Source of the DNA: Aerococcus urinae
GTDB taxonomy: Bacteria > Bacillota > Bacilli > Lactobacillales > Aerococcaceae
Direction: 5' to 3'
NCBI RefSeq assembly: GCF_001543175.1
Contig: NZ_CP014161.1
Coordinates: 1,054,001 to 1,118,000, forward strand
Length of the DNA: 64,000 bases
This document shows positions 13,905 to 64,000 of the stretch, piece after piece. A program made the translations under genes and the position numbers. The notes beneath the pieces were generated by a model. It was not told the origin of the DNA, did no database searches, and worked only from the letters and a program-made list of their open reading frames with translations. Within the stretch, counting starts at the first letter, position 1. Each line of letters begins with the position of its first letter.

Positions 13905-14100
13905 AATGTAAGTTCTCTAAGATATGCGTGCATCTTTTAAATGTGCTGACCGAACAACTACTATCTAGGGATCTGCGAGCTCCAATGGATGTTACGCCTC
14001 TTTTACGTGGACAACTGAAGTTGGATACCGGAACCCACCTGCTATATCGCGGGTTCAGACAGATAGAATTTCCACGGTATCATTGGAGGCTTACATAAAA
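13905..14100 (+). ncRNA. ssrS: 6S RNA (SsrS; the Lacto-usp class)
   Basis: An approximately 195-nt non-coding RNA between rarA and a universal stress protein gene. Its ends pair: ATGTAAG (13906-13912) with CTTACAT (14090-14096). Inside, CTATCT pairs with AGATAG, and CTCCAATG with CATTGGAG, leaving the long, interrupted rod expected for 6S RNA. 6S RNA mimics an open promoter and sequesters the housekeeping RNA polymerase holoenzyme. The Lacto-usp motif described upstream of usp genes in Lactobacillales is regarded as 6S RNA, and both position and size fit. Family assignment is by context and hand folding, not by a covariance search. Confidence 0.75.
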
Positions 14101-26731: not shown

Positions 26732-26770
26732 ACTACTATGATAAATATTTATATTGGAGGAGTGAATTTA

Positions 26771-29494
26771 ATGGTAGAAACTCGTGATAAGAGTAATTTC
26801 TTTGTTCAAGAAGTTGACCAAGTAGAAAATACTCTGCAAACCTCACGGCAAAGTGGGCTAAGCTCATCAGAAGCTAAAGCCCGCTTAGAAAAAAATGGTC
26901 CTAATGAGATTCAAGAAGGTGAAAATCGGACCACCCTACAAAAATTCTTTGATCAATTCAAAGATGCCATGATTATTATCCTTTTAATTGCAGCAGCTCT
27001 ATCTGTTGTGCTTGAAGGTGTTGAGGGCATGGTGGACGCTGTTATTATTTTAGCAGTGGTATTAATTAATGCCGTCTTGGGAGTTATCCAAGAAAACAAG
27101 GCGGAAGACGCAATTGCTTCCTTAAAGGATATGTCATCCCCCCAAGCCCATGTGATTCGTGATGGCGACTCGATCAAGATTGACTCACGCGAAATCGTTG
27201 TCGGTGATATTGTCGTCTTAGAAGCTGGCGATGTCGTTCCTGCAGACCTGCGCTTAACTGAAGTCAATTCCTTACAAATTGAAGAAGCTGCCCTAACCGG
27301 TGAATCGGTACCGGTAACTAAATCCCTAGAAACCGTTCCGGAAGACGCCGCTTTAGGTGACCGATTGAACATGGCCTTCTCATCAACGAATGTGACTTAT
27401 GGCCGTGGTCAAGGGATCGTGGTTGCGACTGCTATGGATACCGAAGTGGGCCATATTGCAACCATGATTGAAGAATCCGACGAAAAATTAACCCCACTTA
27501 AAGAAGATATGAATGACCTAACCAAGTTCTTAACTTGGGCCATTGTCATTATCGCTGTCTTAATTTTCGTAATTGGCCTCTTCATGGAAACTTATGACTG
27601 GGTTGAAATGCTACTGGTCTCAATCTCCATTGCTGTTGCTGCCCTACCTGAAGGCTTACCAGCGATTTCAACCATTATTTTAGCCTTAGGTACCCAAAAA
27701 ATGGCTGACCGCAATGCCCTAGTGAGAAAGCTTCCAGCAGTGGAAACCTTAGGGGGAACCGAAGTTATCTGTTCCGATAAAACCGGTACCCTAACCCAAA
27801 ACAAGATGACCATCGAAAAGGTATTCTATAATGGTGAGCTCCATGATGCTTCTGACCAAATTGATTTCAAGGAACCGGTCTTTAAGGTTATGGTCATGGA
27901 TAATGACTCTACCCTAACCAACAATGGCGATCTTTCTGGTGACCCAACCGAAACCGCTATGATTCAATTTGCCCTTGACAAGGATTTTGACGTCAAAGCC
28001 TTATTAAATGAACAACCCCGGGTGGGTGAAATTCCATTCGACTCAGAACGGAAAATGTCAACCACCGTCCATCCAACTGCCCCTGACCACCAAGATAGAG
28101 GTCAATTTACAGTGATGACTAAAGGGGCTCCTGATGTCTTGATTGCTAACTGTGATTATTACTATGACAATGGTGAAATTAAAGAAATGACGGAAGACTA
28201 CCGTCAAAAACTCTTAGACGCCAACGACAGTATGGCTCGTCAAGCACTTCGGGTTTTAGCGATGGCCTTTAAGTTCTTAGACCAAGAAGCTGATGAATAT
28301 ACCAGTGAAGAGCATGAACGTGGCTTGGTTTATGCTGGTATGGTGGGAGAAATTGACCCTGAACGTCCAGAAGCCAAAGCTTCTATAGCTACTGCTAAAG
28401 ACGCAGGTATCCGGACCGTGATGATTACTGGTGACCACCAAATTACTGCAGCAGCCATTGCTGAACGTTTAGGAATTATTGACGACAGCAATGATGAAAG
28501 TGCTGTAACTACCGGAGCTTACTTAGATACGATCTCAGATGAAGAGTTAGCCGATATGGTCGAACAATTCTCTGTTTACGCCCGGGTAGCTCCTGAACAT
28601 AAGGTACGAATTGTTAAAGCCTGGCAATCAAAAACCCATAATAAAGTCGTTGCCATGACCGGTGATGGGGTTAACGATGCGCCTTCCTTAAAACAAGCCG
28701 ATATCGGTATTGGTATGGGGATCACAGGAACTGAAGTGTCTAAAGGGGCTTCGGACATGGTCCTTGCTGACGACAACTTTGCGACCATTGTTACCGCTGT
28801 TGAGGAAGGACGTAAGGTCTTTGCTAATATTCAAAAAGCGGTTCAATTCCTCCTATCAGCGAACTTAGGAGAAGTGATGACACTCTTCATCGCTACTATC
28901 CTAGGCTGGCAAATTCTAGAACCTATCCACATCTTATGGATTAACTTAGTGACCGATACTTTCCCAGCCATTGCTCTAGGTCTTGAAGGCCCAGAAGCTG
29001 ACGTGATGGAACATAAACCAAGAGGACGTAAGACTAATCTCTTGTCCGGTGGGGTTTTACCAGCCATTATCTACCAAGGGATTTACGAAGGTGGAATTAC
29101 CCTCTTTGTCTTCTGGCTAGCTAAATATCGTCTGGGCTTTGACTTACCCGATGCAGAAGCCATGGCATTCTTAACCCTTTCATTCATCCAATTAGCCCAT
29201 GCCTACAACAGTCGTTCCGTTCACAAATCACTATTCCAAAGCAACCCATTTGCTAATAAGTGGTTAAACATTGCGACAGTTGCATCTGCTGCCCTTCTAC
29301 TCATTACCGTCTTTGTTCCAGGTTTAAATGACGCCTTTGGAACCGTGCATTTGGTCGGTGACCCTAATGCACCAATGATGTGGACCGTAGTTATTCTCGC
29401 TTCCCTCTCCATTATTGTTTACGTAGAAATTGTGAAATTCATTCTACGTTCCACTGGACTAGCAGAGAACTGGGAAGAAAATAAAAAACAATAA
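26771..29494 (+). CDS. P-type cation-transporting ATPase (Ca2+/Mn2+ type)
   Basis: A 907-residue P2-type ATPase. TGES (about residue 175), the phosphorylation site DKTGTLT (about 335) and TGDGVNDAP (about 630) are intact; about ten membrane helices are visible, with PEGLPA in M4, the Ca2+ pump signature. By sequence it would be called a calcium exporter, but control by a Mn2+-sensing leader argues for manganese efflux or a dual role, as reported for streptococcal and lactococcal homologs. The start at 26771 has GGAGGAGTG upstream; the ATG at 26738 lies too close to the riboswitch terminator and lacks an SD. Confidence 0.92.
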   Translation: MVETRDKSNFFVQEVDQVENTLQTSRQSGLSSSEAKARLEKNGPNEIQEGENRTTLQKFFDQFKDAMIIILLIAAALSVVLEGVEGMVDAVIILAVVLINAVLGVIQENKAEDAIASLKDMSSPQAHVIRDGDSIKIDSREIVVGDIVVLEAGDVVPADLRLTEVNSLQIEEAALTGESVPVTKSLETVPEDAALGDRLNMAFSSTNVTYGRGQGIVVATAMDTEVGHIATMIEESDEKLTPLKEDMNDLTKFLTWAIVIIAVLIFVIGLFMETYDWVEMLLVSISIAVAALPEGLPAISTIILALGTQKMADRNALVRKLPAVETLGGTEVICSDKTGTLTQNKMTIEKVFYNGELHDASDQIDFKEPVFKVMVMDNDSTLTNNGDLSGDPTETAMIQFALDKDFDVKALLNEQPRVGEIPFDSERKMSTTVHPTAPDHQDRGQFTVMTKGAPDVLIANCDYYYDNGEIKEMTEDYRQKLLDANDSMARQALRVLAMAFKFLDQEADEYTSEEHERGLVYAGMVGEIDPERPEAKASIATAKDAGIRTVMITGDHQITAAAIAERLGIIDDSNDESAVTTGAYLDTISDEELADMVEQFSVYARVAPEHKVRIVKAWQSKTHNKVVAMTGDGVNDAPSLKQADIGIGMGITGTEVSKGASDMVLADDNFATIVTAVEEGRKVFANIQKAVQFLLSANLGEVMTLFIATILGWQILEPIHILWINLVTDTFPAIALGLEGPEADVMEHKPRGRKTNLLSGGVLPAIIYQGIYEGGITLFVFWLAKYRLGFDLPDAEAMAFLTLSFIQLAHAYNSRSVHKSLFQSNPFANKWLNIATVASAALLLITVFVPGLNDAFGTVHLVGDPNAPMMWTVVILASLSIIVYVEIVKFILRSTGLAENWEENKKQ

Positions 29495-29561: not shown

Positions 29562-29578
29562 CTTTGACTTTTGAACAA

Positions 29579-29716
29579 ACACGAACTATCTATTCAAAAC
29601 GTGCTCCAAAAGTCAGCCCAGACGTCCACTTCACGAACTATGTGCGATAGTTTTGCAACTATCTACCATAGTTCGCTCCAGTGGTTCAGGGCTCTTTTGA
29701 CTTTTGTCACACTCTC
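29579..29716 (+). repeat. Structured intergenic hairpin element A
   Basis: A 138-bp element just after the ATPase terminator. Arms: CAAAAGTCAGCCC with GGGC..TGACTTTTG, then CGAACTATG with CATAGTTCG, then GATAGT with ACTATC around TTTGCA. Loop strands GTCCACTT and CGCTCCAG sit between outer and inner helices. It is nearly identical to the element at 33.25-33.44 kb on the other strand, apart from a 50-nt insertion there. Confidence 0.8.
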
Positions 29717-29927
29717 ATAATTTATCAATTAAATACATTTTTTGTATCATTTTAGCCCCAATGATGGCAGACTTTGGGTTTTTAACTGAATCATGAGCAT
29801 TTCATTTAGTCCATGGACTAATTAGGTATAGACTGAACTTGTAGGTAAAATTTTACGTCAGAGTGAGTTTATTTTACTTAAAAAGTTAATCAGCTATTAA
29901 TTGCTGATAAAAAATGGAGGTATATCA
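29717..29927 (+). promoter_or_regulatory. nox upstream region with perfect palindromes
   Basis: It holds a 16-bp perfect palindrome TTAGTCCATGGACTAA (29806-29821), a 12-bp palindrome GTAAAATTTTAC, and a hairpin ATCAGC/GCTGAT just before the nox SD. A -10-like TATAGA begins at 29828. The first palindrome would overlap the -35 area, as an operator would. Confidence 0.45.
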
Positions 29928-31298
29928 ATGAAATACGCTATTGTTGGTACATCGCATGCTGGTTATGAAGCCGCTCAAACGATTCTTGAAGCGCAACCAG
30001 ATGCAGAAATTAATTTATATGAAGCAGGTTCAACCGCTTCCTTCTTATCCTGTGGGATTCAATCCTACTTAGAAGGCGAATCTGAATCATTAGATGACTT
30101 ACATTACGCTAATGAGGCTTCATATAAGGAACAAGGCATAAATATTATGGTCAATACCGAAGTCGTTTCCTTTGATGGCGACGCTAAGACGGTTACCGTT
30201 AAAACCCCAGAAGGTGAACGGACAGATGACTATGACAAGTTAATCCTCTCCCCTGGTGCCATCCCAACCCCTCTACCTGTTGACGGCGTTGATGCTGAAA
30301 ATGTCTTTTATCTCCGTGGTCGTGACTGGGCACAAAAAGTTCATGACCGTATGAAAGACGCTAAGAAAGTCGTTGTTGTCGGTGGTGGTTACATTGGGAT
30401 TGAAGCGGCTGAAGCTTACGCCCTAGCAGGAATTGACACCACAGTCATTGACTTCCAAGACCGCATCTTACCCACCTACTTAGATGAAGAATTTACTGAT
30501 ATCTTAACCAAGAATGCTGAATCTCACGGTTTAACTTTCCATGGTGGTGAAGGGGTTCAATCCTTCGAAACTAAGGATGGTAAAGTCAGTGCAGTCGTTA
30601 CTGACAAGAATACATATGAAGCTGACACCGTGATTGTTTCTATCGGTATCAAACCTAATACCAAATGGTTAGAAGGTTTAGTTGATATGGACCAAAAAGG
30701 CTTTATTGAAGTCAATGAAAAACATGAAACTTCAGTAAAAGATGTTTACGCTGCTGGGGATGCTACCCTAGTACCATTTAGCCCAACAGGTAAGAAAGTT
30801 TCCTATGCTTTAGCTTCTACCGCTCGTCGCCAAGGTATTGTCGCAGCTAAAAATGCTTTAGGTGAAGAAGCAACCATCCGTCCAGTATCAGGGACTTCTG
30901 GTCTACACTTATTCGACTATGAATTCTCTACTTCAGGGATCAAAGATTCCAATGCTGACTGGTATGATGGTGAAGTGGACAGTAAATATGTCACCGCCCG
31001 CTTACGCCCAACCTTCTTTACTGAATTAAATGAGGACAATAACACCGTCTACATGCAAATCAACTTTGACAAAGAATCTCATGTTGTGCTTGGTGCCCAA
31101 TTCATGTCAAAAGGCAGTGTTGGCGAATTAGGTAACATTATGTCAGTTGTCATTGATCATAAGATGACTTTAGAAGAACTTGAAGCCCAAGACTTCTTCT
31201 TCCAACCAGAATTTGATGGCCCATGGCATCCAATTAACGTCTTAGCAATGCAAGCTTTAGGACGTACCTACGGATCCGATAAAATGTTATTTATGTAA
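29928..31298 (+). CDS. nox: NADH oxidase (H2O-forming type)
   Basis: A 456-residue FAD/NADH disulfide-reductase-family enzyme. The FAD motif is VGTSHAG with His10; the single redox cysteine is Cys42 in ASFLSCGIQSYLEG, the position of the cysteine sulfenic acid in enterococcal NADH oxidase and NADH peroxidase; the NADH motif is VVGGGYIGIEAAEAYA (about residues 152-167). It most likely reduces O2 to water with NADH and regenerates NAD+; NADH peroxidase is the close alternative. GGAGG lies upstream of the ATG. Monocistronic. Confidence 0.85.
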   Translation: MKYAIVGTSHAGYEAAQTILEAQPDAEINLYEAGSTASFLSCGIQSYLEGESESLDDLHYANEASYKEQGINIMVNTEVVSFDGDAKTVTVKTPEGERTDDYDKLILSPGAIPTPLPVDGVDAENVFYLRGRDWAQKVHDRMKDAKKVVVVGGGYIGIEAAEAYALAGIDTTVIDFQDRILPTYLDEEFTDILTKNAESHGLTFHGGEGVQSFETKDGKVSAVVTDKNTYEADTVIVSIGIKPNTKWLEGLVDMDQKGFIEVNEKHETSVKDVYAAGDATLVPFSPTGKKVSYALASTARRQGIVAAKNALGEEATIRPVSGTSGLHLFDYEFSTSGIKDSNADWYDGEVDSKYVTARLRPTFFTELNEDNNTVYMQINFDKESHVVLGAQFMSKGSVGELGNIMSVVIDHKMTLEELEAQDFFFQPEFDGPWHPINVLAMQALGRTYGSDKMLFM

Positions 31299-31321
31299 TT
31301 TAAGTAGTTTTAAGTCAATTG

Positions 31322-31351
31322 AAAGGCAGGGTTTTGAGCCCTGCCTTTTTT
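31322..31351 (+). terminator. Terminator after nox
   Basis: AAAGGCAGGG pairs with CCCTGCCTTT across a 7-nt loop, ending in T. Confidence 0.9.
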
Positions 31352-31354
31352 ATA

Positions 31355-31470
31355 CTTATTCCAAGCGCAAGACAAGCAACCACACCACGACCTGTCGAAG
31401 TATTCTCTGCGTGAATTCTTTCGACTTTTCGCTCCAGCGGTCTTGCCTTCTGACGCGCTTGTCACTCTCT
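31355..31470 (+). repeat. Structured intergenic hairpin element B (divergent member)
   Basis: It follows the nox terminator directly. It ends TTCGCTCCAG...TTGTCACTCTC, the same right half as element A (TTCGCTCCAG...TTGTCACACTCTC), and has outer arms CAAGCGC and GCGCTTG and inner arms GTCGAA and TTCGAC. The left half is diverged. Confidence 0.55.
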
Positions 31471-31471
31471 A

Positions 31472-32395
31472 TTATTTTTCGATATCTAATCGTGTATTAA
31501 ATGTATCTCCATGTTCTAAGTCTCCGTATTGATAACCTCTTTGGAACCAGGCTTGCCTTTGGGCCGCTGACCCGTGGGTGAAACTATCGGGAACTACCCG
31601 ACCGTAAGCTTCTTTTTGTAGGGTATCATCCCCCACCGCATTGGCCGCTTGCATAGCCTCATCGATATCTCCCGCTTCGAGTAGGCCTTGGTCTTCAGCA
31701 TAATGGGCCCAAACACCAGCGTAATAATCTGCTTGAAGTTCTAAACGAACAGATAAAGCATTCTTCTCCTCTTCACTGGCCTGACGTATGGTAGATTGAT
31801 ACTTTGCCATGGTTCCTAACTCGGTTTGAATGTGATGGCCAACTTCATGGGCCAAAACGTAAGCCATAGCAAAATCGCCTGGAGCATGGTAACGATTCTT
31901 TAATTCCCGATAGAAAGACAAATCGATATAAACGGTTTTATCTCCTGAACAATAAAACGGTCCAGCCTGAGCGCTACCAAAACCACAGCCCCCAGTTTGG
32001 ACATGGTCAGTATAGAGTACCAAACGCGCTGGTTCATAGTCTTTACCATAATCAGCAAATTTTTGCTGCCAAAAATCTTCAGTACTACCTAAAACCGCAG
32101 ACATGAATTCTTTTTCTTGATCACTTGCCTGCTGACTTCCATCCTGACTAACTTCTTCTGTTTGAGGCTCTGAACCGGTGGAGCTGCCACTATTACCCAA
32201 CCCGCCCCCTAGGAGGGAGCCACCGCCAAAAATAGTAAAGGCCAAAATCAAGATAATCAGCCAACGCGGGGCGCCTCGGGTTAAGAATAAGAGACTCAGT
32301 AAGTTTCCTAAGCCACCACTCGACCGTCTGGGACCAGTCGACTGTCCCCTGCGATCTTCGACGTTCCGACTGCGACGTAAATCCTCCCATTTCAT
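31472..32395 (-). CDS. Neutral zinc metallopeptidase, YpfJ family
   Basis: A 307-residue membrane-anchored protein. The N-terminus MKWEDLRRSRNVEDRRG is the family signature, followed by one transmembrane helix (about residues 40-62) and an extracytoplasmic zinc-binding domain with HEVGHH (about residue 184) and AYVLAHE before it. The substrate is unknown. The start at 32395 is chosen for the conserved MKWED sequence; a GTG three codons earlier is possible. It stands alone, convergent with nox. Confidence 0.9.
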   Translation of the reverse strand: MKWEDLRRSRNVEDRRGQSTGPRRSSGGLGNLLSLLFLTRGAPRWLIILILAFTIFGGGSLLGGGLGNSGSSTGSEPQTEEVSQDGSQQASDQEKEFMSAVLGSTEDFWQQKFADYGKDYEPARLVLYTDHVQTGGCGFGSAQAGPFYCSGDKTVYIDLSFYRELKNRYHAPGDFAMAYVLAHEVGHHIQTELGTMAKYQSTIRQASEEEKNALSVRLELQADYYAGVWAHYAEDQGLLEAGDIDEAMQAANAVGDDTLQKEAYGRVVPDSFTHGSAAQRQAWFQRGYQYGDLEHGDTFNTRLDIEK

Positions 32396-32458
32396 ACTAT
32401 ACACCTGCTTTTTCTTTTATTTGCCGTTTGAAGTATCTTATAACTTATTGCTAATTCC

Positions 32459-32467
32459 ATTATACCA
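32459..32467 (-). promoter_or_regulatory. Extended -10 promoter of the YpfJ-type gene
   Basis: Minus strand TGGTATAAT (-10 at 32459-32464), about 65 bp upstream of the start codon. Confidence 0.5.
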
Positions 32468-32469
32468 TG

Positions 32470-32830
32470 TAAGCCCTTCCTTTAACGAATGATAAATACA
32501 ATAATTTCTTTCTATAATAAGATACGGCTAAAAAAGTAGAGGGTTATCTTCTATATTCATTAAGCTGTAAAAATCTGTGTAAAGTCAACAAATGGTCCAA
32601 ACTAAATAATAAAAAAGCACCTGACGTGGTGCTTTAATTTCCCCATCATACAAAATAATCTAGCTGTTTTATTTATAAAAATGTTAAACTTAAATTTGCA
32701 CTCTCACTTTTGGACCCCTTTAGAGTGCAAAATTATTTCAGATTCTATTGTTTTCTTAATATTTCCAAAATTAAAAACGCTGATATATCAGCGTTTTGAC
32801 TTTCTTTAATATTCTCTGATTTTCTTAAAA
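32470..32830. other. Gene-free region with several hairpins
   Basis: No gene found. It holds a plus-strand TATAAT (32513-32518), a hairpin AAAGCACC/GGTGCTTT (32614-32635) with a T run on the minus strand, a 10-bp hairpin TTTGCACTCT/AGAGTGCAAA (32695-32731, 17-nt loop), and the tRNA terminator (32776-32799). Confidence 0.5.
32776..32799 (-). terminator. Terminator of tRNA-Thr
   Basis: AAAACGCTGA and its complement TCAGCGTTTT around TATA; the minus-strand T run follows. It lies about 30 bp past the tRNA 3' end. Confidence 0.8.
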
Positions 32831-32903
32831 TGCCGAAAATAGGAATCGAACCTACGACCTTTGCATTACGAATGCACTGCTCTACCGACTGAGCTATTTC
32901 GGC
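32831..32903 (-). tRNA. tRNA-Thr, anticodon CGU
   Basis: 73 nt on the minus strand. Acceptor GCCGAAA/TTTCGGC is perfect with discriminator A; D-arm GCTC...GAGC; anticodon loop TTCGTAA gives anticodon CGU (codon ACG, Thr); T-arm with TTCGATT loop. The top pair of the anticodon stem (G27-A43) is not Watson-Crick. CCA is not encoded. Confidence 0.95.
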
Positions 32904-32928
32904 TTGTGACTAAGGAGTCAACTCCATT

Positions 32929-32958
32929 AGTATAGCATTAGCCTAGTCTAAAAAGCAA
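32929..32958 (-). promoter_or_regulatory. Promoter of tRNA-Thr
   Basis: Minus strand -35 TTGCTT (32953-32958), 18-bp spacer, extended -10 TGC-TATACT (32929-32934). Confidence 0.6.
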
Positions 32959-33061
32959 GTCTGTTTTAAAAAACAGAGTAAGTAGGAGAGAATAAATTTA
33001 TTTTATTTATATTCTGTTTTCTACTTGTCTGCTTTAAATTTGATAGAAAGAAGAGTTGATA

Positions 33062-33247
33062 ATGATTATAGACATTAACAAAATAGAAAAACTGCTAAAA
33101 AGCGATATTACTAGCTATCAAATATGTAAGGCCACTGGTATTGCCACACAATCGCTGGATAATTATCGTAAGTATGACAGTAAATTAGAAAACATGCGCT
33201 TAGGTATAGCCCTTAAATTATATGACTATGCAAAGCAAATATTGTAA
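33062..33247 (+). CDS. Small HTH-like protein of unknown function
   Basis: A 61-residue protein, MIIDINKIEKLLKSDITSYQ followed by ICKATGIATQSLDNYRKYD. The spacing resembles a short helix-turn-helix of the phage-repressor kind (SYQICKATGIATQSLDNYR), with a third helix LGIALKLYDYAKQIL. AAAGAAGAG precedes the ATG. No partner gene is adjacent: it sits between the tRNA-Thr gene and a structured repeat. It could be a remnant of an element integrated near the tRNA, or a small regulator; the function is not known. Confidence 0.6.
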   Translation: MIIDINKIEKLLKSDITSYQICKATGIATQSLDNYRKYDSKLENMRLGIALKLYDYAKQIL

Positions 33248-33252
33248 TAAAG

Positions 33253-33438
33253 CGAGTGTGACAAAAGTCAAAAAAGCCCTGAACCGCTTCGCATACTATA
33301 TCTGTAACTCGCTTGCGCTTCGAACAGCTATAGCAACTGGAACAAACTATGGAAGATAGGCGAGAGCCTATCGCACATAGTTCGTGAAGTGGACGTCAGG
33401 GCTGACTTTTGGAATACATTTTGAATAGATAGTTCGCG
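33253..33438 (-). repeat. Structured intergenic hairpin element C
   Basis: The reverse-strand counterpart of element A and very similar to it along its whole length, except for 50 nt inserted next to the CCAG loop strand that fold into an extra arm (CTATA.CTGT with ACAG.TATAG). The tip helix reads GATAGGC/GCCTATC in place of GATAGT/ACTATC in A. On the minus strand the outer arm AGCCCTGA/TCAGGGCT ends in TTTTTT, so it could act as a terminator for purB. Confidence 0.8.
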
Positions 33439-33521
33439 TTTTTAAAAGTAACTAAGTCTTTTGTACCAGACTCTTCTTATGTATATATTTTCTTATTTTA
33501 ATCGATTTAACGAGTCCGCCT

Positions 33522-34826
33522 CTACTCAGCAGAAATCAAACCCAGTCTCTTATAGATTTCATCGACTCGGCGTAAATGGTAATGATAGTCAAAAGCATCA
33601 TCGATAGCTTCTGAATTCAGGCGGTCAGTAATTTCTGGACAATCCTCTACTAAACTCCTAAAATCTTGACCTTGGTCCCAGGACTTAGCGGTTAAGGGTT
33701 GGACGAGATCATAAGCTGCTTCCCGTGACAGACCAGCATCGACTAGCTTTAATAATAAGCGTTGGCTATAAATTAAGCCATGAGTTGCTTGCATATTAGC
33801 CAGCATTTTCTCTGGAAAGACTTTCAGATTTTTCAAAACCTTGCTGAAGCGATTTAAAATATAGTCTATTAGAATGGTCGTATCAGCTAGGATAATACGC
33901 TCGGCACTAGAATGAGAAATATCACGTTCATGCCAGAGGGAGACATTTTCATAAGCAGTCACCACATGGCCACGACAAACTCGAGCTAAACCAGTAACAT
34001 TTTCACTAGAAATGGGATTACGCTTATGGGGCATAGCACTCGATCCCTTTTGCCCTTTGGCAAAGGACTCTTCTACTTCATGGACTTCTGATCTTTGTAG
34101 GTGACGAATTTCAGTGGCCATATTTTCAACACTGGTTGCAATCAAAGCCAAGCTAGCGATGTATTCTGCGTGAAGGTCACGTGGTAAAACTTGGGTAGAA
34201 ATATCTTGCTGACGAATGCCTAAATGGTCACAGACATAAGCTTCAATGTCAGTAGGGACATTGGCATAGGTGCCCACAGCACCAGAAATTTTACCCGCTT
34301 CAACACCTCTAGCTGCGTGGTTAAAGCGTTCGATATTTCGCTTAATTTCAGCATAATAACGCGCCATTTTTAGACCAAATGTCGTTGGTTCGGCATGGAC
34401 CCCATGGGTTCTCCCCATACATACAGTGTCCTTATAAGTTAAAGCTTTTTCTTTTAGAATTTCTAAAAGCTGGTCTAAGTCTTTTTTAATTAAACGATTA
34501 GCTTGTTTTAATTGATAGGCTTGGGCAGTGTCGACAACATCAGTCGAGGTAAGCCCATAATGCACCCATTTCTTTTCGGGACCTAGGGATTCAGACAGGC
34601 AGCGGGTAAAAGCAACCACATCATGGCGGGTTTGAGATTCAATTTCGCTGATGCGTTCCACATCGAAGCGAGCATTTTGGCGAATGGCTTGGGCATCTAC
34701 TTGAGGAATCACACCTAATTCACTCCAAGCTTCAACGGCTAAAATTTCAACTTCCAACCAAGCCTGATAATGGTTCTCTAAGGACCAAATAGCCCCCATT
34801 TCCGGTAATGTATAACGTCCTAGCAT
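33522..34826 (-). CDS. purB: Adenylosuccinate lyase
   Basis: A 434-residue fumarase/aspartase-superfamily enzyme. It removes fumarate from SAICAR (purine step 8) and from adenylosuccinate in AMP synthesis. The signature [16 protein letters not shown] carries the flexible catalytic serine loop; TSTDVVDTA and TRTHG-like [14 protein letters not shown] are present. It is the last gene of the purine operon, three bases after purD. Confidence 0.97.
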
Positions 34827-55917: not shown

Positions 55918-58900
55918 TTAGTCTTCTTTTTTCTTTTTACCTAAAGCCAGGATGGAACCTGCTCCGATTAAAGCAAGAGCTAATGAGCTTGCGTAGCCTG
56001 CTACTGCACCAGTTTGTGGCAGTTGGGAATGAGCCTTAGCAGGAGCCGATTGAGTCTTACTATTATCGTCAGCGGTATGATCTTGAGTCTTCACAGAAAC
56101 TGTCTTGTCGTCTGCTTTAACAGGGTCAACATCGGCTTCTGGTTCTTGATCAGGTGTTGCTTCATCTTCAACTTCAGGTTTTTCTTCTGGCTGGGGTTCA
56201 GGTTGAGGTGTTGGAACTGGTGTCACACCAGAGCCAGCTTTTTCTTCAACCGTAACGGAAACTGTTACCGTTTCACTTGAACCATCAGGATAGGTAACGA
56301 TGACAGATTTGTCAATCTTATCGCCTGGTTTAGCATCTGCTGGAACTTCGACAACGACTGCGCCAGTTTCGGGATCAACCGTGATGCCGTTTTCGCCAGC
56401 GCCGGGTTGGAAGCTGGTGCCAGCTGGTGGGTTGACCTCTTTACCGTCTTCATCCTTGAAAATCGGTTCGCCGACTTTCACCTTGGTGCCTGGTTGACCG
56501 GTACCTGGTTTGTATTCAGGCTCGTAGATGTCCTTGTCTTGCTTGCTTGCTGGTGTATGGCCAGTAACGGTAGTTTCGACAGGGGTGCCGGTCCGGGTTT
56601 CCACACTACCATCTGGATTGGTGTAGTCCTTGGATGGGAAGATGGTAATGCTGTCGCCCGTTCCTTGACGAGGAACTTCGATGGTAAAGTCACCATTATC
56701 GTCAGAAGTGCCGGTGCCTATGGTATTACCGTCCTTGTCTTTGACTTCAATGGTCGTATTTGGAACGGTCGTTTTCCCGGTCACAGTGGTCTTGTCTGAA
56801 CCGGGTTCGTTCTTAGCCCCTGGGTTGGTAATTTGTGGGGTTTCCTTAACGACAGTTTCAGCGCCACCTTGAGGATTGCCTTGGTCGTCTGTGACAGGCT
56901 TGAAGTTGCCTTGGTCATTCTTCTTACCAGGAACAATACTAATCTTGTCACCAGGATTTTGTTTTGGTACATCGATCTTAATATTACCGTCTTCATCTGA
57001 CTTACCAGTGCCGATGGTATTGCCATCCTTGTCCTTGACTTCCACATCGGTATTTGGCGTGGTCTTGCCAGTCACGGTCGTGGTGTCCTTGCCAGGTTGG
57101 TTTTCAGCGCCTGGTTCGGTGACACGTGGGAAGCTGTCTTCATCCTTGGAATCCGTTCCGCGGTCTTTTTCTTCCTGGTCGGTCCAGCCGTCGTTATCAT
57201 CATCCTTGTCACCTTGGTCGATGCCTGGAACATTTGGATTGTTTGGATCCTCTGGCATGCCGGAATCCTTGTCAGGCAGACCGTCCTTGTCCGTGTCGCG
57301 GTAAACGGTGATAGTTGATTCAGCCGTTACAGGATTGCCGTCTGCATCGGCAATTGGCTTGCCATCCTTATCTAAGACAGAAACTTCAACCGTAATGGTC
57401 CGAGTTTCTTCTTCAGGAGCCCAGTCCGTAATCTCAGGACTACCGGTTACTTGACCAGTTTCTGGGTCCACGGTCAGACCTGGATAGTTGTTTTGGCCAT
57501 CGATAGTCACCTTAACGCTGCCACCTTCTGGCACATTATCGGCTTGAGGCGTTACAGGTGTAATGTCCTTGCCTTCGAGAGCATTTTGTGACTTCGGTGT
57601 CACTTCCACGCTGACTACAGCAGGAGCATCTTCAGTGACAGTCGTTTCGACAGGGTCACCGGTCCGGGTTTCTGTCGAGCCGTCTGGGTTGGTGTAATCC
57701 TTAGATGGGATCACAGAAACCTTGTCGCCGCCTTCTTGACGAGGAACTTCGATGGTAAAGTCGCCGTTTTCGTCAGAGTTACCGGTGCCGATAGTCTTGC
57801 CGTCCTTGTCCTTCACTTCAACCTTAGAGTTTGGAACGCTGGTCTTGCCGGTGACGGTGGTCTTGTCTGAACCAGGTTCATTCTTGGCCCCTGGGTTGGT
57901 GATTTGTGGGGTTTCCTTGACTACAGTTTCAGCCCCACCTTGAGGATTGCCTTGGTCATCCTTGACTGGTGTAAAGTTACCTTGGTCATCCTTCTTGCCA
58001 GGGATGATGGTGACTTTATCGCCAGGATTTTGCTTAGGCACGTCGATCTTGACATTGCCTTGGTCGTCGGAAGTGCCGGTGCCGATGGTGTTTCCATCCT
58101 TGTCCTTAACTTCCACATCCGTATTTGGCGTGGTCTTGCCAGTTACCGTCGTGGTGTCCTTACCTGGCTCATTTTCAGCGCCGGGTTCGGTGACACGTGG
58201 GAAGCTGTCTTCATCCTTGGAATCGGTGCCGCGATCTTTTTCTTCCTGGTCGGTCCAGCCGTCGTTGTCGTCGTCCTTGTCGCCTTGGTCGATACCTGGA
58301 ACAGTTGGATTGTTTGGATCTTCTGGCATACCTGTATCCTTGTCAGGTTGGCCGTCCTTGTCGGTGTCGCGGTAAACGGTGATAGTTGATTCAGCCGTTA
58401 CAGGATTGCCGTCTGCATCACGGACTGGTTGGCCGTCTTTATCTAGGACAGAAACTTCAACCGTAATGGTCCGAGTTTCTTCTTCAGGTGTCCAGTCGGT
58501 GATTTCCGGTTGTCCGGTTACTTGGCCCGTTTCTGGATCCACAGTCAGACCTGGATAGTTGTCTTGGCCATCGATAGTCACTTTAACGCTGCCGCCTTCT
58601 GGTACATTGTCCGCTTGTGGTGTCACTGGGGTAATGTCCTTACCTTCCAGGGCGTTTTGTGACTTCGGAGTCACTTCCACGCTAGTTTCAGCAGGGGCCT
58701 CTTCCGCATTTGGATTGGTCACGGTCACTTTGACGGTCCGTTGGATGGCTTCGTCAGTTGGTTGACCTTGAGCATCCTTTTGACCGGTACCAGTTGAGGT
58801 AATTTCAACAGGGATTTCCACGACTTTTTCTTTTTCGCCGGCTTGGAAGTCCACGGTCGGGGTGCCGACTAAGTTGCCGTCTTCATCCACTGATAGACCG

Positions 58901-61900
58901 TCAACTGGAACAGGTGTCGTCACCTTAGCGCCAGCTTTATTTGGTGTCACAACCTGGGTGTTGGCTGGGACTTCTTGGCCGTTGGTTGCTGTGACGTCAG
59001 TCGTTTGGGCATCGAGGCCGTCCCATACCTTAGACGCGTCATCGTCTTTATCTGGAATGCCGTCGTTGTCATCGTCTTCGTCGGTCTTATCGGCTTGACC
59101 GTCGCCGTCCGTATCGCGAAGCACGGTCACCTTGATCGGCTCGGTCGCTTCATTGCCGGATGGATCCACTGCCTTGACAGTTGCTGGGAAGTCGCGGGAC
59201 TCATCTTGGTCGTCCGCCCAGTCTACAGTACCCGCTGGAACGGTCCCTTCGATCTGCTTGGTCTCAGGATTGTAGCTTAAGCCGTCTGGAAGGCCGTCAA
59301 CCGTCACGGTCGCTTCCGGATCATCGGTCTCTACAGAAACAGGGTCAATTGGCTGCCCTTCTGTGGCTTGGATATCCTTGGCGGAAACAGTGATGGTCGG
59401 TGCGGTAGTGTCGGCTGGAGTGACAGGAGTCGCCGTCGCCACAAAATCCTTAGGCCCCGTAATCACTTGGCTTGGGTCTTCATTCCATTGAGGGTTTTCA
59501 TAGTTTTCCTTTGCCGTCAAGCTTGGAATATTTTCATTAGATAATTGGGCTTGGTCTTTGACATCATAAGCTTTCTTGCCAAAATCATTAACCCCTTCAC
59601 CAGCTGTTAAAGTCACACGGTGGTAACCTTCCGGAGTCGCTTCATCTTCCTTGCCAGTCCGGTCGATCACATCTGGTGCTGACACCTTAACTGGAGCCGT
59701 TACTTGGTCCTGTGACCCATCCTCATAAGTCACGGTGACAGGCACTTCAATGGTCTCACCAGGTGTCTTAGAGGTTTCCGAAGCTGGAATAGTGATAGCC
59801 CCGGTATTTGGATCGATGGATGCACCACGGGTTGGTGTAGTGATGGTGAAGGCTGGTTTGGCGGGGTCTTTGGACAAAGGCACCTCATTTGTTTCCACTG
59901 GGGCTTCCGTTCCATCATCAGCTAATTTTACAAAGCTTGGGGCGTCAACCTTAGCTTCTTGGCCAAAGTCAACGGCTGTTTCTTTATAGCTTGGTTGGTG
60001 CAAGTTGGCATCCTTGTATTTCACAATAAAGGAATCCGCAGCTAATTGGTTGCCACCGGACTCGAAGACCGCCCGAATAATCTCCCCATCTCGCAATTTC
60101 AGTTGTTGAGCTTCTTCGATGGTCTTAGGCAAGTCGTAGGTATCGTCAGTTCCAGCCACTAATTGATTGACAGGTGTTTCTTTGAGGACGTCGCCTTCTT
60201 CGTTATACCAAACAATCTTATTATTGAAGCCTGCTGGTGGTAATTGTGCCCCACGTAAGTCAGCCTTAGCTGTGTCATTCAAGCCAGCTGGTTTATCGGT
60301 ATCATTGAAATTAGTGATTTCTAGGTCAATCACGACATTCGGTACCACGGCATGGTTGACATTGTACCAACCATATGGGCCACGAACATAACCTGCTGTC
60401 TCAGACCCAGGAACAGCTTGAGGCACAAAGCTTTGATTCTCAGCCGGGCTTCTGAAGACTGGCGTTGTGAACCCATTATAGGCATTGACCAAGTTGCCAT
60501 CCCGGTCAAAGATCTGCATATACATGTATTCGGTATTATTTTCATCCATGTTTTTGTTGTCAAAACGAATGGAGTAACGGCCATCTTCATTGGTATAAGC
60601 ATACTTGGTTTCTTGAATGGCATCCGGATTGTTTAACAAGAAGTCTTCGGCTGCTTTAGCTCGTTGGTTTTGAGGTAAAGAGTTAACAGCTGATTCATAA
60701 GCGGCTGAACCTTCCTTAGACAAGTAGGAAGCAACCACCTTATAACCAGCTGCTTCAACATCCCGGCTATTATTATTTGGACCGGTTGCACTATTGGCAT
60801 AGTCGCCCGCACCGGTCTCTAGCCAAACTCGACCAGAAACACTATTATCGCTGCGACGGAGAACGGCTGGGTTATTGATTGGGCCTTCTGGATCTTCAAC
60901 CCATTCACTCTCAGGTCGGTGCATGTAAGCCCCACCTTGTTCGATCATAAAGATCCCAGTCCGCTGCATGTTGGTTCCGAGTAGTGGGAACTGACCTAAG
61001 TTTTTATTAGTCGCTGAACCCACAAATGATCCTGGGAAGAAGCCCCCTGCTTGACGGAACATGGTCACCCGGTTGCCGGTATCCGGATCGAAGTAGTCGG
61101 GAATCCATAAGCGATAATATTGGTCGCCCTTAGCGGAATACTTATGTTCCACTCCATTGGCGTCAATCCAAGCATCTCTTAAGTCAAAAGCAAAAGAACC
61201 TGGGCCTGCTTGACTCCCATCAACTTGTGATAATTGATTGGTCGTTTGCGCCCGATAAAGCGGGGAAACCGCACCGTCAGTATCAATCCACTGCATGTAG
61301 ACATCTGTACCTTCAGCGACTTCGGTCAAGCCATTGGCCATGGTAGATGGCACCCCTTTGTCGGCAATCCAAGCACGACCTGATAGGGTATTGGCAGCGT
61401 TAGACATATCGGTCGCGGATTTGATGTAACCGTTAGCGATAGCGTCCGCATCAATGGCATCGACTTTCTTTTGATTGTTGGCACGGTCTTCGCCAGACTT
61501 ATCTTCAGCTGGGGTCTCCGTATCGCTTGCTTCAGCAGCATAAGTTACTGGAGAAGCTTTTCCTTCTTCCTTATCAGTTGGTTGAGCGGCAGCTTCTTCT
61601 TCAGACGTATTTTCTTCAGCTGCTGCTTCAGAAACTGCTGGTACTTCTTCTGATTCTGCTGGTGTTTCAGCCGGAGCTTCCTCTCCAACAGCTGGCGCTT
61701 CTGTGGAAGCTGGCTCTTCAACGACAGGTGCTTCTTCTCTTACAGGGGCTGCTTCCTCTTTAGAAGGTTCAATTTCTCCTACTGGTGTTGATACTTCTTC
61801 ACTTGTGTTTGCTTCTTCAGCTGCTGCTTGAACAACGACGGCATCCCCCGCAAAGAGGAGCCCCGCAGCCACAGCTACAGAAGCCACGCCGACACTTAGG

Positions 61901-61974
61901 CGCTTGATGGAGTAGCGGTAGAACTTATTGCTCTGCTTCTCCTTTTTCACTTGGTAGTTATTTTTTCCAACCAT
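55918..61974 (-). CDS. YSIRK/LPXTG cell-wall-anchored surface protein (2018 aa)
   Basis: Signal peptide of the YSIRK type (YSIKR at residues 21-25, cleavage near 51), then an E/A/P-rich stretch (about 53-150), an N-terminal region with a prealbumin-like B-type segment (SVSGRVWLETGAG, NEDGRYSIRF), Rib-like and putative-Ig modules, a thrombospondin-type-3 calcium loop (DTDGDGQADKTDEDDDNDG), two tandem 357-residue copies each with an Ig-like, a DTDKDG calcium loop and two PGA-N-PG modules, a final Rib-like domain (about 1820-1900), a proline-rich wall segment and LPQTG with a hydrophobic helix and KKKKED tail. A sortase A substrate, probably an adhesin. It may correspond to an aerococcal surface protein (Asp); that is inference. 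Confidence 0.93.
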   Translation of the reverse strand: MVGKNNYQVKKEKQSNKFYRYSIKRLSVGVASVAVAAGLLFAGDAVVVQAAAEEANTSEEVSTPVGEIEPSKEEAAPVREEAPVVEEPASTEAPAVGEEAPAETPAESEEVPAVSEAAAEENTSEEEAAAQPTDKEEGKASPVTYAAEASDTETPAEDKSGEDRANNQKKVDAIDADAIANGYIKSATDMSNAANTLSGRAWIADKGVPSTMANGLTEVAEGTDVYMQWIDTDGAVSPLYRAQTTNQLSQVDGSQAGPGSFAFDLRDAWIDANGVEHKYSAKGDQYYRLWIPDYFDPDTGNRVTMFRQAGGFFPGSFVGSATNKNLGQFPLLGTNMQRTGIFMIEQGGAYMHRPESEWVEDPEGPINNPAVLRRSDNSVSGRVWLETGAGDYANSATGPNNNSRDVEAAGYKVVASYLSKEGSAAYESAVNSLPQNQRAKAAEDFLLNNPDAIQETKYAYTNEDGRYSIRFDNKNMDENNTEYMYMQIFDRDGNLVNAYNGFTTPVFRSPAENQSFVPQAVPGSETAGYVRGPYGWYNVNHAVVPNVVIDLEITNFNDTDKPAGLNDTAKADLRGAQLPPAGFNNKIVWYNEEGDVLKETPVNQLVAGTDDTYDLPKTIEEAQQLKLRDGEIIRAVFESGGNQLAADSFIVKYKDANLHQPSYKETAVDFGQEAKVDAPSFVKLADDGTEAPVETNEVPLSKDPAKPAFTITTPTRGASIDPNTGAITIPASETSKTPGETIEVPVTVTYEDGSQDQVTAPVKVSAPDVIDRTGKEDEATPEGYHRVTLTAGEGVNDFGKKAYDVKDQAQLSNENIPSLTAKENYENPQWNEDPSQVITGPKDFVATATPVTPADTTAPTITVSAKDIQATEGQPIDPVSVETDDPEATVTVDGLPDGLSYNPETKQIEGTVPAGTVDWADDQDESRDFPATVKAVDPSGNEATEPIKVTVLRDTDGDGQADKTDEDDDNDGIPDKDDDASKVWDGLDAQTTDVTATNGQEVPANTQVVTPNKAGAKVTTPVPVDGLSVDEDGNLVGTPTVDFQAGEKEKVVEIPVEITSTGTGQKDAQGQPTDEAIQRTVKVTVTNPNAEEAPAETSVEVTPKSQNALEGKDITPVTPQADNVPEGGSVKVTIDGQDNYPGLTVDPETGQVTGQPEITDWTPEEETRTITVEVSVLDKDGQPVRDADGNPVTAESTITVYRDTDKDGQPDKDTGMPEDPNNPTVPGIDQGDKDDDNDGWTDQEEKDRGTDSKDEDSFPRVTEPGAENEPGKDTTTVTGKTTPNTDVEVKDKDGNTIGTGTSDDQGNVKIDVPKQNPGDKVTIIPGKKDDQGNFTPVKDDQGNPQGGAETVVKETPQITNPGAKNEPGSDKTTVTGKTSVPNSKVEVKDKDGKTIGTGNSDENGDFTIEVPRQEGGDKVSVIPSKDYTNPDGSTETRTGDPVETTVTEDAPAVVSVEVTPKSQNALEGKDITPVTPQADNVPEGGSVKVTIDGQNNYPGLTVDPETGQVTGSPEITDWAPEEETRTITVEVSVLDKDGKPIADADGNPVTAESTITVYRDTDKDGLPDKDSGMPEDPNNPNVPGIDQGDKDDDNDGWTDQEEKDRGTDSKDEDSFPRVTEPGAENQPGKDTTTVTGKTTPNTDVEVKDKDGNTIGTGKSDEDGNIKIDVPKQNPGDKISIVPGKKNDQGNFKPVTDDQGNPQGGAETVVKETPQITNPGAKNEPGSDKTTVTGKTTVPNTTIEVKDKDGNTIGTGTSDDNGDFTIEVPRQGTGDSITIFPSKDYTNPDGSVETRTGTPVETTVTGHTPASKQDKDIYEPEYKPGTGQPGTKVKVGEPIFKDEDGKEVNPPAGTSFQPGAGENGITVDPETGAVVVEVPADAKPGDKIDKSVIVTYPDGSSETVTVSVTVEEKAGSGVTPVPTPQPEPQPEEKPEVEDEATPDQEPEADVDPVKADDKTVSVKTQDHTADDNSKTQSAPAKAHSQLPQTGAVAGYASSLALALIGAGSILALGKKKKED
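56542..58683 (-). repeat. 1071-bp tandem duplication in the adhesin gene
   Basis: Copy 1 is 57613-58683 and copy 2 is 56542-57612; landmark sites such as GACACGTGGG (57121 and 58192) and the SVEVTPKSQNALEGKD codons are exactly 1071 bp apart (357 codons). The copies differ at scattered codons, for example GQDNYPG versus GQNNYPG. Confidence 0.95.
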
Positions 61975-62465
61975 ATGTGTCCTCCTTATACTCGTACATA
62001 TTTGTTTTTTATAAATAAGAACTTTGTAAAGATATAGTACCTAAAAAAAAAAAAAATACAATGTATATAAATTTTTAAAAGAGATAATTTATTATTTTAT
62101 CTATTTATATATCCATAACCTCCCTTTATAGATGTCTATAAATAGGCCTTATTTATAAATAATATACATATTTGTTTTTAAATTACATTTAAAATACCAT
62201 TTGACTTATCCCCTTTAATTTACAGTATAATAATTAACTTTAAAAAAACAAATCTTAATTTGTCTTTTATTTGGAAATATAATCTATAATTTAGCTTCTA
62301 AGCCGTGTCACGAAGGCCTTCTTGTCCATTTAAATTTATAAAAGTTTACATATAAAAGAACATTATTTTGTTCTGAATAAGAACAATATTGTTTATTTTA
62401 TAGTTCTTATTTTTCGTTTTAAAAAGCTATACATTATTCAATTCAATCAGCTTATAAGCGAAATA
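61975..62465. other. AT-rich gap between the two surface protein genes
   Basis: No gene. It holds the SD and candidate promoter of the large adhesin gene and a near-palindrome ATAAATAGGCCTTATTTAT at about 62138-62156. Otherwise very AT-rich sequence with nothing recognized. Confidence 0.5.
62034..62061 (-). promoter_or_regulatory. Candidate adhesin promoter with a 14-bp A/T homopolymer spacer
   Basis: Minus strand -35 TTGTAT (62056-62061) and -10 TACTAT (62034-62039) with a 16-bp spacer that is mostly a run of 14 T (plus strand A at 62043-62056; its last base is shared with the -35). About 65 bp upstream of the start codon, which has AAGGAGG before it. Confidence 0.5.
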
Positions 62466-62499
62466 AAAAAAGCTCCCATACATCTTTGTATGAGAGCTT
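62466..62499 (-). terminator. Terminator of the second LPXTG gene
   Basis: AAGCTC-x-CATACA pairs with TGTATG-x-GAGCTT, followed by a T run on the minus strand. Confidence 0.8.
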
Positions 62500-62531
62500 A
62501 AAATCTATAGGGTTAAATTAACCATTTAGTC

Positions 62532-64000
62532 CTACTTTTTGCGTTTACCTACAACAAGAATGCTACCTGCCCCGATAAGAGCTAGAGCTAATGAGCTTGC
62601 TAAACCAGCAACTGCCCCCGTTTGAGGGAGTTTGGAGTGAACTCTAGCAGTGCTTACTTTAGCCTCTGAAGATTGAACGGCTTCATTATCCTTAACATCA
62701 TGAGATGTTTTTGAAGGATCAGTTTTAGAAGCCTTTGTATTTTCAACAGTTTCTTCTACTTTGGAAGGTTCGTCCTCTTCATTATGATTTACTGGAACAA
62801 CTGGATTGGAAGCTGGTTCAGTTTCATGATCTTCCTCAGCATTGTCATCCTTAATGCCAGTATCTTGGTTATCACTGCTTGTTTCATCTGGAACATGAGA
62901 AGTATCCTCATCGTCTGTTGGTTCATCCGCTAGTTTGTCTTCAGATTTATTATCATCACGACCTGCTTCGTGTCCAACTACTTGAACTGGGATAGTAGCC
63001 TTGCCTCTTGGTAGGTCTTCATCTTCGATAACTACTTTGATTGGGCCATCAACGTCAGTACCAGGGGTAACTTCGATTTCACCTGTTCCTGGGTTAATTT
63101 GAGCAGGTACTTCTTTTCCATCTTCGTCAGTCGCTGTTACCGTGGTGTTTTCATCTGGATTAGTAATAATAATACCAGTGCCTTGTTTTTCATCGCTTGG
63201 GTAAACAGGTTTAACTGCACCACCAACTTCTGTCTTAGTTATATCTTGCTCAGGCTTATTATCGTCTTGCCCGGTTTCATGACCATTAACAGGAAGAGTC
63301 ACTTCTTGTTTTCCACCTGGTAATTCAGGATCTTCGATGATAACGGTAATTGGGCCATCAACATCTGTACCTGGTGTTACCTTGATATCACCAAAGCGGC
63401 CGTCTGTGACCACTTCAACTGGAAGTTCTTTGCCATCTTCATCTTTAGCAGTAACTTTAGTATCTACATCTGGATTTACGATCATAATACCGGTTGATTG
63501 TTGGTTATCAGTCGGATCCACGGGATTCAGCTTGCTGTCGTCAACTTGGGTTTGTTCAGTAGCTGGTTTGTCCTCAGAACCGTTATCATCTCGGCCTTCT
63601 TCATGACCAACAACTTGAACTGGAATAGTGGCTCTGCCTCTTGGTAGGTCTTCGTCTTCGATAACTACCTTGATTGGACCATCCACATCTGTTCCTGGGG
63701 TGACTTCAATTTCACCCGTTTCTGGATTGATTTCGGCAGGAACTTGCTTACCGTCTTCATCAGTTGCGGTCACTGTGGTTGTTTCATCTGGATTAGTAAT
63801 AACAATACCAGTTCCTTGTTTTTCATCACTTGGATGTACTGGTTTAACCGCGCCTCCAACTTCGGTCTTAGTTGCATCTTCCTCAGATGTATTATCATCA
63901 CGACCTGCTTCGTGGCCATTAACTTGAACTGGGATAGTAGCTTTACCGTTTGGCAAGTCTTCATCTTCAATCACAACATCGATTGGACCATCCACATCAG
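62532..64000 (-). CDS. LPXTG surface protein, repeat region and anchor (5' part beyond window)
   Basis: At least 489 residues in the window, open through the right edge, so the N-terminus is missing. About four units of roughly 100 residues follow one another, each with TGIxITNPDExTTVTATDEDGK, an EVTPGTDVDGPIxVVIEDEDL segment and a VxGHExGxDDN linker; the third unit in gene order is diverged at DNA level. Then a D/E-rich linker and LPQTGAVAGLASSLALALIG with a KRKK tail. The anchor segment is nearly the same as that of the neighboring adhesin. A sortase substrate, probably an adhesin. Confidence 0.9.
   Translation of the reverse strand, partial: DVDGPIDVVIEDEDLPNGKATIPVQVNGHEAGRDDNTSEEDATKTEVGGAVKPVHPSDEKQGTGIVITNPDETTTVTATDEDGKQVPAEINPETGEIEVTPGTDVDGPIKVVIEDEDLPRGRATIPVQVVGHEEGRDDNGSEDKPATEQTQVDDSKLNPVDPTDNQQSTGIMIVNPDVDTKVTAKDEDGKELPVEVVTDGRFGDIKVTPGTDVDGPITVIIEDPELPGGKQEVTLPVNGHETGQDDNKPEQDITKTEVGGAVKPVYPSDEKQGTGIIITNPDENTTVTATDEDGKEVPAQINPGTGEIEVTPGTDVDGPIKVVIEDEDLPRGKATIPVQVVGHEAGRDDNKSEDKLADEPTDDEDTSHVPDETSSDNQDTGIKDDNAEEDHETEPASNPVVPVNHNEEDEPSKVEETVENTKASKTDPSKTSHDVKDNEAVQSSEAKVSTARVHSKLPQTGAVAGLASSLALALIGAGSILVVGKRKK
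62950..64000 (-). repeat. Tandem approximately 100-codon repeats in the second LPXTG gene
   Basis: The block encoding IEVTPGTDVDGPIKVVIEDE occurs near 63010-63070 and again near 63650-63710, with a more diverged unit between and another starting at the right edge. Units of roughly 310 bp. Confidence 0.85.

Follow-up and report, generated by a model that had tools for sequence, protein, structure and literature searches.

The window, a 64,000-nucleotide (nt) stretch of the Aerococcus urinae genome (contig NZ_CP014161.1, positions 1,054,001 to 1,118,000), contains three intergenic copies of a structured repeat, here called element A, element C and the third copy, which lie among genes for a P-type ATPase, a putative zinc metallopeptidase and an adenylosuccinate lyase (Table 1). 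They belong to a family of units of about 118 nt which recurs elsewhere in this genome and in other Lactobacillales, and which represents a small, structured, interspersed and probably mobile repeat whose RNA-like signature is unusually strong.

A sequence-only reading of this DNA had described A and C as a near-identical pair, and both were found at the places and with the ends that it gave. The inverted match between A (29577–29714) and C (33254–33441) consists of a block of 106 nt at 87% identity and one of 32 nt at 97%, with 50 additional nt in C between the two matched blocks; a repeat finder gave 106 nt at 87% and 43 nt at 88%. "Near-identical" is therefore generous. A does have a closer counterpart: queried against its own genome it returned 41 pieces (E≤1) in many places, one of them 99% identical across 137 nt. 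The stacked helices and fixed strands were as described, and as RNA both elements fold far beyond their shuffled versions, A at −58.3 kcal/mol (shuffle mean −27.5, z −8.57) and C at −69.4 kcal/mol (shuffle mean −38.1, z −8.10), with 0 of 200 shuffles equal in either case. The identities proposed for the two neighbours, a P-type ATPase and purB, agree with their Pfam domains. The boundaries drawn earlier (29579–29716 and 33253–33438) are replaced by the structured units of Table 1, each followed by a tail. The pair is real, but the count was wrong, a third and weaker copy having been overlooked within a far larger family.

Table 1. Repeat copies, their parts and the neighbouring genes, in window coordinates
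Feature	Position	Strand	Evidence
Element A, complete structured unit, GAGTGTGAC...GGAGCACGTTT on the minus strand	29597–29714	−	model R1, 117.2 bits, E 6.9e-29
Start of the 3' tail of A, TGAATAGATAGTTCGTG, common to C and other full copies	29579–29596	−	by eye
Third copy, subtype with arms AAGCGC/GCGCTT	31352–31469	−	54.8 bits, E 3.6e-12
Terminator-like hairpin AGGCAGGG..CCCTGCCT and short T run behind the third copy	31324–31346	−	by eye
Element C, structured unit with additional side hairpin	33254–33421	+	59.2 bits, E 2.4e-13
Optional side hairpin TCGCATACTATATCTG..CAGCTATAGC in C, absent from A	33289–33334	+	A/C alignment
Tail of C, with apparent decayed terminal hairpin AACTAAGTCTTTTGTACCAGACTC at 33450–33473	33422–33473	+	by eye beside intact copies
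63-aa open reading frame (ORF) upstream of C, no Pfam match, not a proven gene	33056–33247	+	
P-type cation-transporting ATPase, convergent to A in the folding direction	26738–29494	+	PF00122, PF00689
Putative neutral zinc metallopeptidase, directly upstream of the third copy	31472–32404	−	PF04228
Adenylosuccinate lyase (purB-like), convergent to C in the folding direction	33522–34826	−	PF00206, PF10397

Units are described below on the strand reading GAGTG...GTTT, termed F, which is the reverse of the strand quoted in the sequence-only reading. Three stacked helices are laid out in the F-strand order GAGTGYGA, helix 1, a short bulge, helix 2, CRCTGGA, helix 3, TGAAGYGGA(CGT), the partner strands and GARCASGTTT. 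The helix sequences vary by subtype with the pairing retained, as in the arms AAAAGTC/GACTTTT, AGTCAC/GTGACT, AAGCGC/GCGCTT, GGGTGC/GCACCC and GCTGAC/GTCAGC; mosaic units with non-matching arms also exist, for example at 415527. Internal loops with GA opposite GA are found in 91 of 99 (basal) and 83 of 100 (upper) distinct rows from the A. urinae genome, and these presumably form tandem sheared G-A pairs. A second end type, GGATGTGA...GAACTCAACT, occurs in the same arrays. By eye a third end type, GGGTGTGAG...CGAACCCAACT, could be delimited, running in the opposite direction within composite arrays (L126, L141, L154, L159 and L160, with plus-strand matches; L116, L127 and L144, with minus-strand matches). 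The 12-nt core of the side hairpin seen in C (≤1 mismatch) has 26 occurrences in the regions fetched around matches in this genome, 25 of them on the F strand and in or adjoining a match.

The sequence-only reading had proposed searching this genome and its relatives and building a covariance model. The model used here, R1, has 28 seed units; A (L001) is one of these, its match in Table 1 therefore being by construction, and C lies outside the seed set. Within the 1.97-Mb A. urinae genome R1 gave at least 94 matches at E≤0.01, in 53 position clusters, a lower bound which comes from scoring 150 of 854 candidates; three of these matches are the copies in the window, so that the possibility of only two copies existing anywhere falls away. 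The 53 regions fetched around the matches contain 101 at E≤1e-7. The stretch from 1083000 to 1950000 holds 70 of the 94 matches, 53 of them on the minus strand (raw counts). The dnaA gene of A. tenax maps near 1932373 of this genome.

Among relatives, 43 of 149 genomes had matches at E≤0.001, and across the order Lactobacillales 51 of 295 did so at E≤1e-4 (A. urinae included in both), representing 22 of 75 genera and several families, some of them by a single match. A phylum-wide draw of 199 genomes gave one matching genome, that of A. urinae itself. In these wide searches at most 24 candidates per genome were scored, and weak or sparse copies may escape. A pattern scan of named genomes found 25 stretches, 10 in Lacticigenium, 8 in Aerococcus, one each in Carnobacterium, Desemzia and Fundicoccus, and 4 on contigs of metagenome-assembled genomes. 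Model scanning covered 24 of these, the Fundicoccus stretch (L173) being left out; 19 matched (E≤1e-5), and no match was obtained in L170, L176, L191, L184 and L188, the last two being Lacticigenium and Aerococcus stretches. A 6.6-kb contig from a Sporosarcina metagenome-assembled genome (L192, DYWT01000038.1) bears a clear unit [97.8 bits] and is possibly misbinned. In nucleotide searches with A, one of 72,556 plasmids was found, a 592-kb record labelled as a plasmid of A. tenax [CP127381]. The genes on this record (L193–L199), among them dnaA, dnaN, gyrA/B, rpoB/C, rho and operons for ribosomal proteins, suggest a chromosomal fragment. The same kind of search among 50,697 phage records returned no match to A, and carriage by phages was rejected as far as this search reaches.

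In an unfitted MAFFT alignment (A1) of 28 units, 16 of them from A. urinae, RNAalifold predicted 34 pairs, 27 of which are changed on both sides in at least one sequence. A larger alignment, of the 101 matches from this genome (100 distinct rows), was fitted to the model structure and compared with shuffles and with versions in which the partners were slid. Paired cells made up 92.5%, against 62.1% in shuffles and 35.1–42.5% with slid partners; two-sided cells numbered 1242 against 153–230 slid, and the covariation score over 40 pairs was 0.729 against 0.088–0.127 slid. Three of five measures of covariation exceeded every shuffle and all five exceeded the slid versions. The fold of the unit is thus supported by covariation.

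On the F strand the unfitted alignment contains 49 G-U against 13 A-C oppositions, plus 45 other mismatches, and this excess indicates that the F strand is the one that folds. The same tendency appears in the fitted alignments (156/73 in A. urinae, 80/25 in other genomes); because they lean to G-U by construction, only the 49/13 count was relied on. With this caveat the units show a preference for one folding strand, and these counts, as well as the strand on which neighbouring stop codons and terminators lie, speak for the strand opposite to that chosen in the sequence-only reading.

The position of the units was analysed relative to ORFs that a simple rule had called with a minimum of 70 codons, with the 94 matches joined into 68 arrays. 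The nearest ORF upstream of the F-strand start was on the same strand in 49 arrays, and 32 of the 68 begin −1 to 28 nt past a stop codon on their own strand; opposite-strand ORFs upstream come no closer than 55 nt, and downstream ORFs no closer than 41 nt. Four arrays have a distance of −1, that is, the first G of the element completes the stop codon; the array between rpoB and rpoC is one of them. One unit begins 5 nt past a tRNA-Leu gene. As for the window, the third copy starts 2 nt past the stop of the metallopeptidase gene, and C, which starts 6 nt past that of the same-strand 63-aa ORF, belongs with the near-stop arrays, this ORF being below the 70-codon cut-off. A has no stop codon close upstream in the folding direction, its nearest upstream ORF being on the opposite strand and 186 nt away. 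The earlier placement of both elements directly 3' of the ATPase and purB genes, in the same orientation as these, rested on the wrong strand. An ORF lies upstream in 62 of the 63 rows from other genomes, on the same strand in 42, of which 22 are within 22 nt, and on the opposite strand in 20; at least one locus (L035/L101) is counted twice in these rows. The two opposite-strand rows of this doubled locus overlap the ORF by 18 nt, and the other 18 opposite-strand rows are at least 69 nt away.

A simple rule detected a terminator within 200 nt downstream of 25 of the 68 arrays, against 4 upstream on the same strand and 7 in a mirror control, and did so for 16 of the 32 near-stop arrays. It is crude and overlooks some hairpins visible by eye, among which it did not count the one behind the third copy. 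Units between a stop codon and a terminator should be copied into mRNA 3' ends. Annotated A. tenax DNA has 25 matches in 350 kb, and units lie there 6 nt after trpB, 8 nt after rplL, 9 nt after lysS and directly after mutY. Several A. tenax units, such as that at 178280 and the pair at 154.6–155.1 kb, lie between annotated genes that are both on the opposite strand.

Behind 59 of the 94 A. urinae units a unit-start motif follows within 24 nt, as against 1 of 94 in a control stretch further downstream; 19 of these followers are full model matches and 40 are fragments or of another subtype. The units stand mostly head to tail, with some in the opposite direction within composite arrays. A few copies are nested, GGATG-type units being found within the apical loops of other units with the host stem resuming beyond. 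A nesting rule gave ten candidates, mostly array neighbours, from which three (1539041, 1708186 and 1724260) were counted as clear loop insertions; more are visible by eye, including one at the L142 site of A. tenax.

Comparison of A. urinae with A. tenax at base level covered 11 sites, with flanks mostly 91–97% identical (84–98% by piece). Units are present in one species and absent from the other at five of these: the first site of L139 and L144 (absent in A. tenax), and mutY, 28280 and 41040 (absent in A. urinae). At L144 the A. tenax side is too divergent to fix the junction. The mutY insert sits between the stop codon and the terminator hairpin. At the trpB site A. urinae keeps a 30-nt 5' fragment and A. 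tenax has two units, and the other five sites (L140, L146, L167, L142 and 22501) are occupied in both species with a difference in number or type. Five further sites were compared by BLAST coordinates only; the second site of L139, L143, L145 and L147 differ in length, L141 hardly. Four of nine A. tenax sites (22134, 49798, 36264 and 40505) have no usable flank in the fetched A. urinae regions.

Presence and absence in sister species, arrays and nesting argue for mobility, and covariation with a one-strand preference, together with position behind stop codons, argues for structure in transcript 3' ends. The sequence-only reading had named two options, mobility as a palindromic repeat and a role as structured RNA at the ends of transcripts; it is borne out in part, the evidence supporting both options together. 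We consider it reasonably probable that non-autonomous mobile repeats of hairpin shape form a family in the Lactobacillales, with A and C as members, and that these repeats settle between stop codon and terminator and so become structure of the 3' untranslated region (3'-UTR). Units would enter or multiply just behind stop codons and ahead of the terminator, mostly directed as the gene is, would build up head-to-tail arrays, insert into one another's apical loops and be lost again. A transposase supplied in trans would presumably act on the folded or palindromic form, and transposition, not loss or recombination alone, presumably caused the differences between the sister species. The units would be transcribed, and their rod-like fold in mRNA 3' ends would most likely shield the message from 3' exonucleases or tune read-through.

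Several observations count against this interpretation. Neither a Y1 transposase (PF01797; controls matched in 5 of 14) nor an IS1182 transposase (PF13751, which 4 of 15 genomes within the genus carry) had any match in the A. urinae genome. The upstream gene is on the opposite strand in 19 of the 68 arrays, A among them, and the terminator rule detected nothing downstream of 43. Two of the covariation measures lie within the shuffle range, namely the number of pairs with two-sided change (35, shuffle mean 33.4) and that of further pair types (119, shuffle mean 114.3). No constant target-site duplication was found among the 11 sites compared, the candidates being a 4-nt ATAA at mutY and a 10–11-nt repeat GAAGGATGTGA at 41040, with no clear one at the other sites. 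Absence from a sister species may also be loss.

A possible, though doubtful, explanation is that the full A/C type (about 170–220 bp; unit, tail and terminal hairpin) is a classical miniature inverted-repeat transposable element (MITE) spread by a transposase of the IS1182 family. Two IS1182-annotated copies in A. tenax, 99.9% identical to each other (L198 31657–33186, L199 10742–12271), have the ends GAGGCTGGGACAAAAG / CTTTTGTCCCAGACTC, and GAGGCTGGGACAAAA is the end of insertion sequence copies in three further genomes of the genus; full A/C-type copies start with GAGTGTGACAAAAGTC, end with GACTTTTGTCCCAGGCTC and have the terminal hairpin GAGCCTGGGACTTTTGTCCCAGGCTC. A match to a known insertion sequence end, which the sequence-only reading had listed as speaking against a new family, was thus found in part, some copies having ends that resemble this family. 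The core of the terminal hairpin has 12 matches in A. urinae (≤2 mismatches; backward control none), nine of them no more than 100 nt from a model match or from one of the pieces returned by the search with A; of the remainder, 1717083 overlaps a 17-nt piece from that search and 466368 and 1889377 do not. IS1272, an IS1182-family member (after Siguier et al.), is described as inserting at inverted repeats and replacing stem-loops without duplication [PMC5678879], which would give a related process reason to aim at terminators and hairpin loops. Such ends are, however, absent from the other subtypes, which are most of them, and in the window they are lost in A, where by eye the tail hairpin of the sister copies is not retained, and decayed in C. 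The shape GGGAC-TTTT-GTCCC is that of an ordinary terminator too. The ends of the two annotated A. tenax copies resemble this same hairpin shape. Within the genus, G009, G011 and G014 have both the transposase and the repeats, but G012 has the transposase without matches and G000, G001 and G002, the last two copy-rich, have matches without it. Because the transposase does not track the repeats in this way, the IS1182 link is a lead only.

Rather unlikely, in our opinion, is a class of mobile element of a new kind for which the unit's own fold, a covarying rod of RNA or single-stranded DNA with two GA/GA loops in which every helix is free to change, is the substrate. It would insert at transcript 3' ends just behind stop codons and in the hairpin loops of its relatives, and selection for mobility alone would maintain an RNA-like structure in dozens of lineages. 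The fixed loop strands beside freely changing helices, the same-strand stop adjacency and the unit between rpoB and rpoC in two species might suggest a host-selected 3'-UTR RNA which stabilises mRNA, sets expression ratios within operons or binds a protein through its GA/GA loops. This is unlikely, as the type, number and presence of units vary at the same gene in sister species, units stand behind unrelated genes and a tRNA-Leu, 5' fragments and nested copies resemble insertion debris, and the distribution among genera is patchy. An array of recombination sites like integron attC, in which folded single strands are exchanged by a recombinase, would account for constant ends around variable helices, for head-to-tail rows and for sites where sister species share the flanks and differ in the units enclosed. 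We regard this as highly improbable: the units have no visible cargo genes between them (no search for an integrase was made), and unequal loss from arrays explains swapped units more simply. Chance palindromes or ordinary terminators, suggested by the terminator shape of the tail hairpin, have next to no probability and were rejected in view of the covariation over 40 pairs, fold z scores below −8 and the finding of only A. urinae itself in the 199-genome control.

The bcr repeats of the Bacillus cereus group are structured chromosomal repeats. REP/BIME repeats affect mRNA 3' ends, and REP units are several times shorter than the units of about 118 nt considered here. REP/BIME and REPINs with RAYT resemble the present family in being abundant extragenic hairpin repeats in composite rows [PMC2817692, PMC3116915]. 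A system of this kind was rejected, as PF01797 had no match in the A. urinae genome, whose units are mostly head to tail and not short alternating hairpins. Of the systems compared, the closest is BOX of Streptococcus pneumoniae, treated with RUP and SPRITE in the source (PMC3049150). BOX elements are small, modular and scattered through the genome, with much predicted RNA structure; they grow by repetition of modules, occur within one another and are overrepresented between convergent genes, and some have been shown to be transcribed as operon 3' ends. The present family is likewise modular, structured, expandable and nested. BOX, as portrayed there, has boxA, boxB and boxC modules, terminal repeats and target duplications, whereas the present units are marked by a complete covarying rod of 118 nt, GA/GA loops, arrays of whole units and stop-codon adjacency, the comparison being one of descriptions only. 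The sequence-only reading had taken the elements to be neither BOX, RUP nor REP, which holds as far as tested: there was neither an Rfam match nor a Y1 transposase, and BOX and RUP sequences were not compared.

Rfam (release 15) recognised only 6S RNA and a tRNA in the window, nothing at E≤1 over A or C, and nothing in five other loci with further copies and subtypes; a known Rfam family was accordingly rejected. In the open-access literature no description of such a repeat in Aerococcus or Carnobacteriaceae was recognised, and the family has apparently been undescribed so far. The 6S RNA gene, at 13911–14093 (+), scored above the Rfam gathering score. At the far end of the window, 55918–64000 holds several other repeat families, among them copies of 121 nt at spacings of 309 and 324 nt close to the end of the window, and GTCGTCGTCC-type runs; perhaps, as a guess, these encode a repetitive surface protein on the minus strand.

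The family would add to the Lactobacillales a strongly covarying interspersed repeat absent from Rfam. Its placement suggests that many message 3' ends, including those of A. tenax rpoB, rplL, lysS and trpB, carry a shared, fast-changing structure. That the loops stay fixed while the helices change freely points to a reader of the fold, and with this the question of what moves and what reads the repeats becomes directly testable. The sister species offer a natural series for gauging the effect of 3' structure on mRNA, the same gene having units of differing number or type behind its stop codon.

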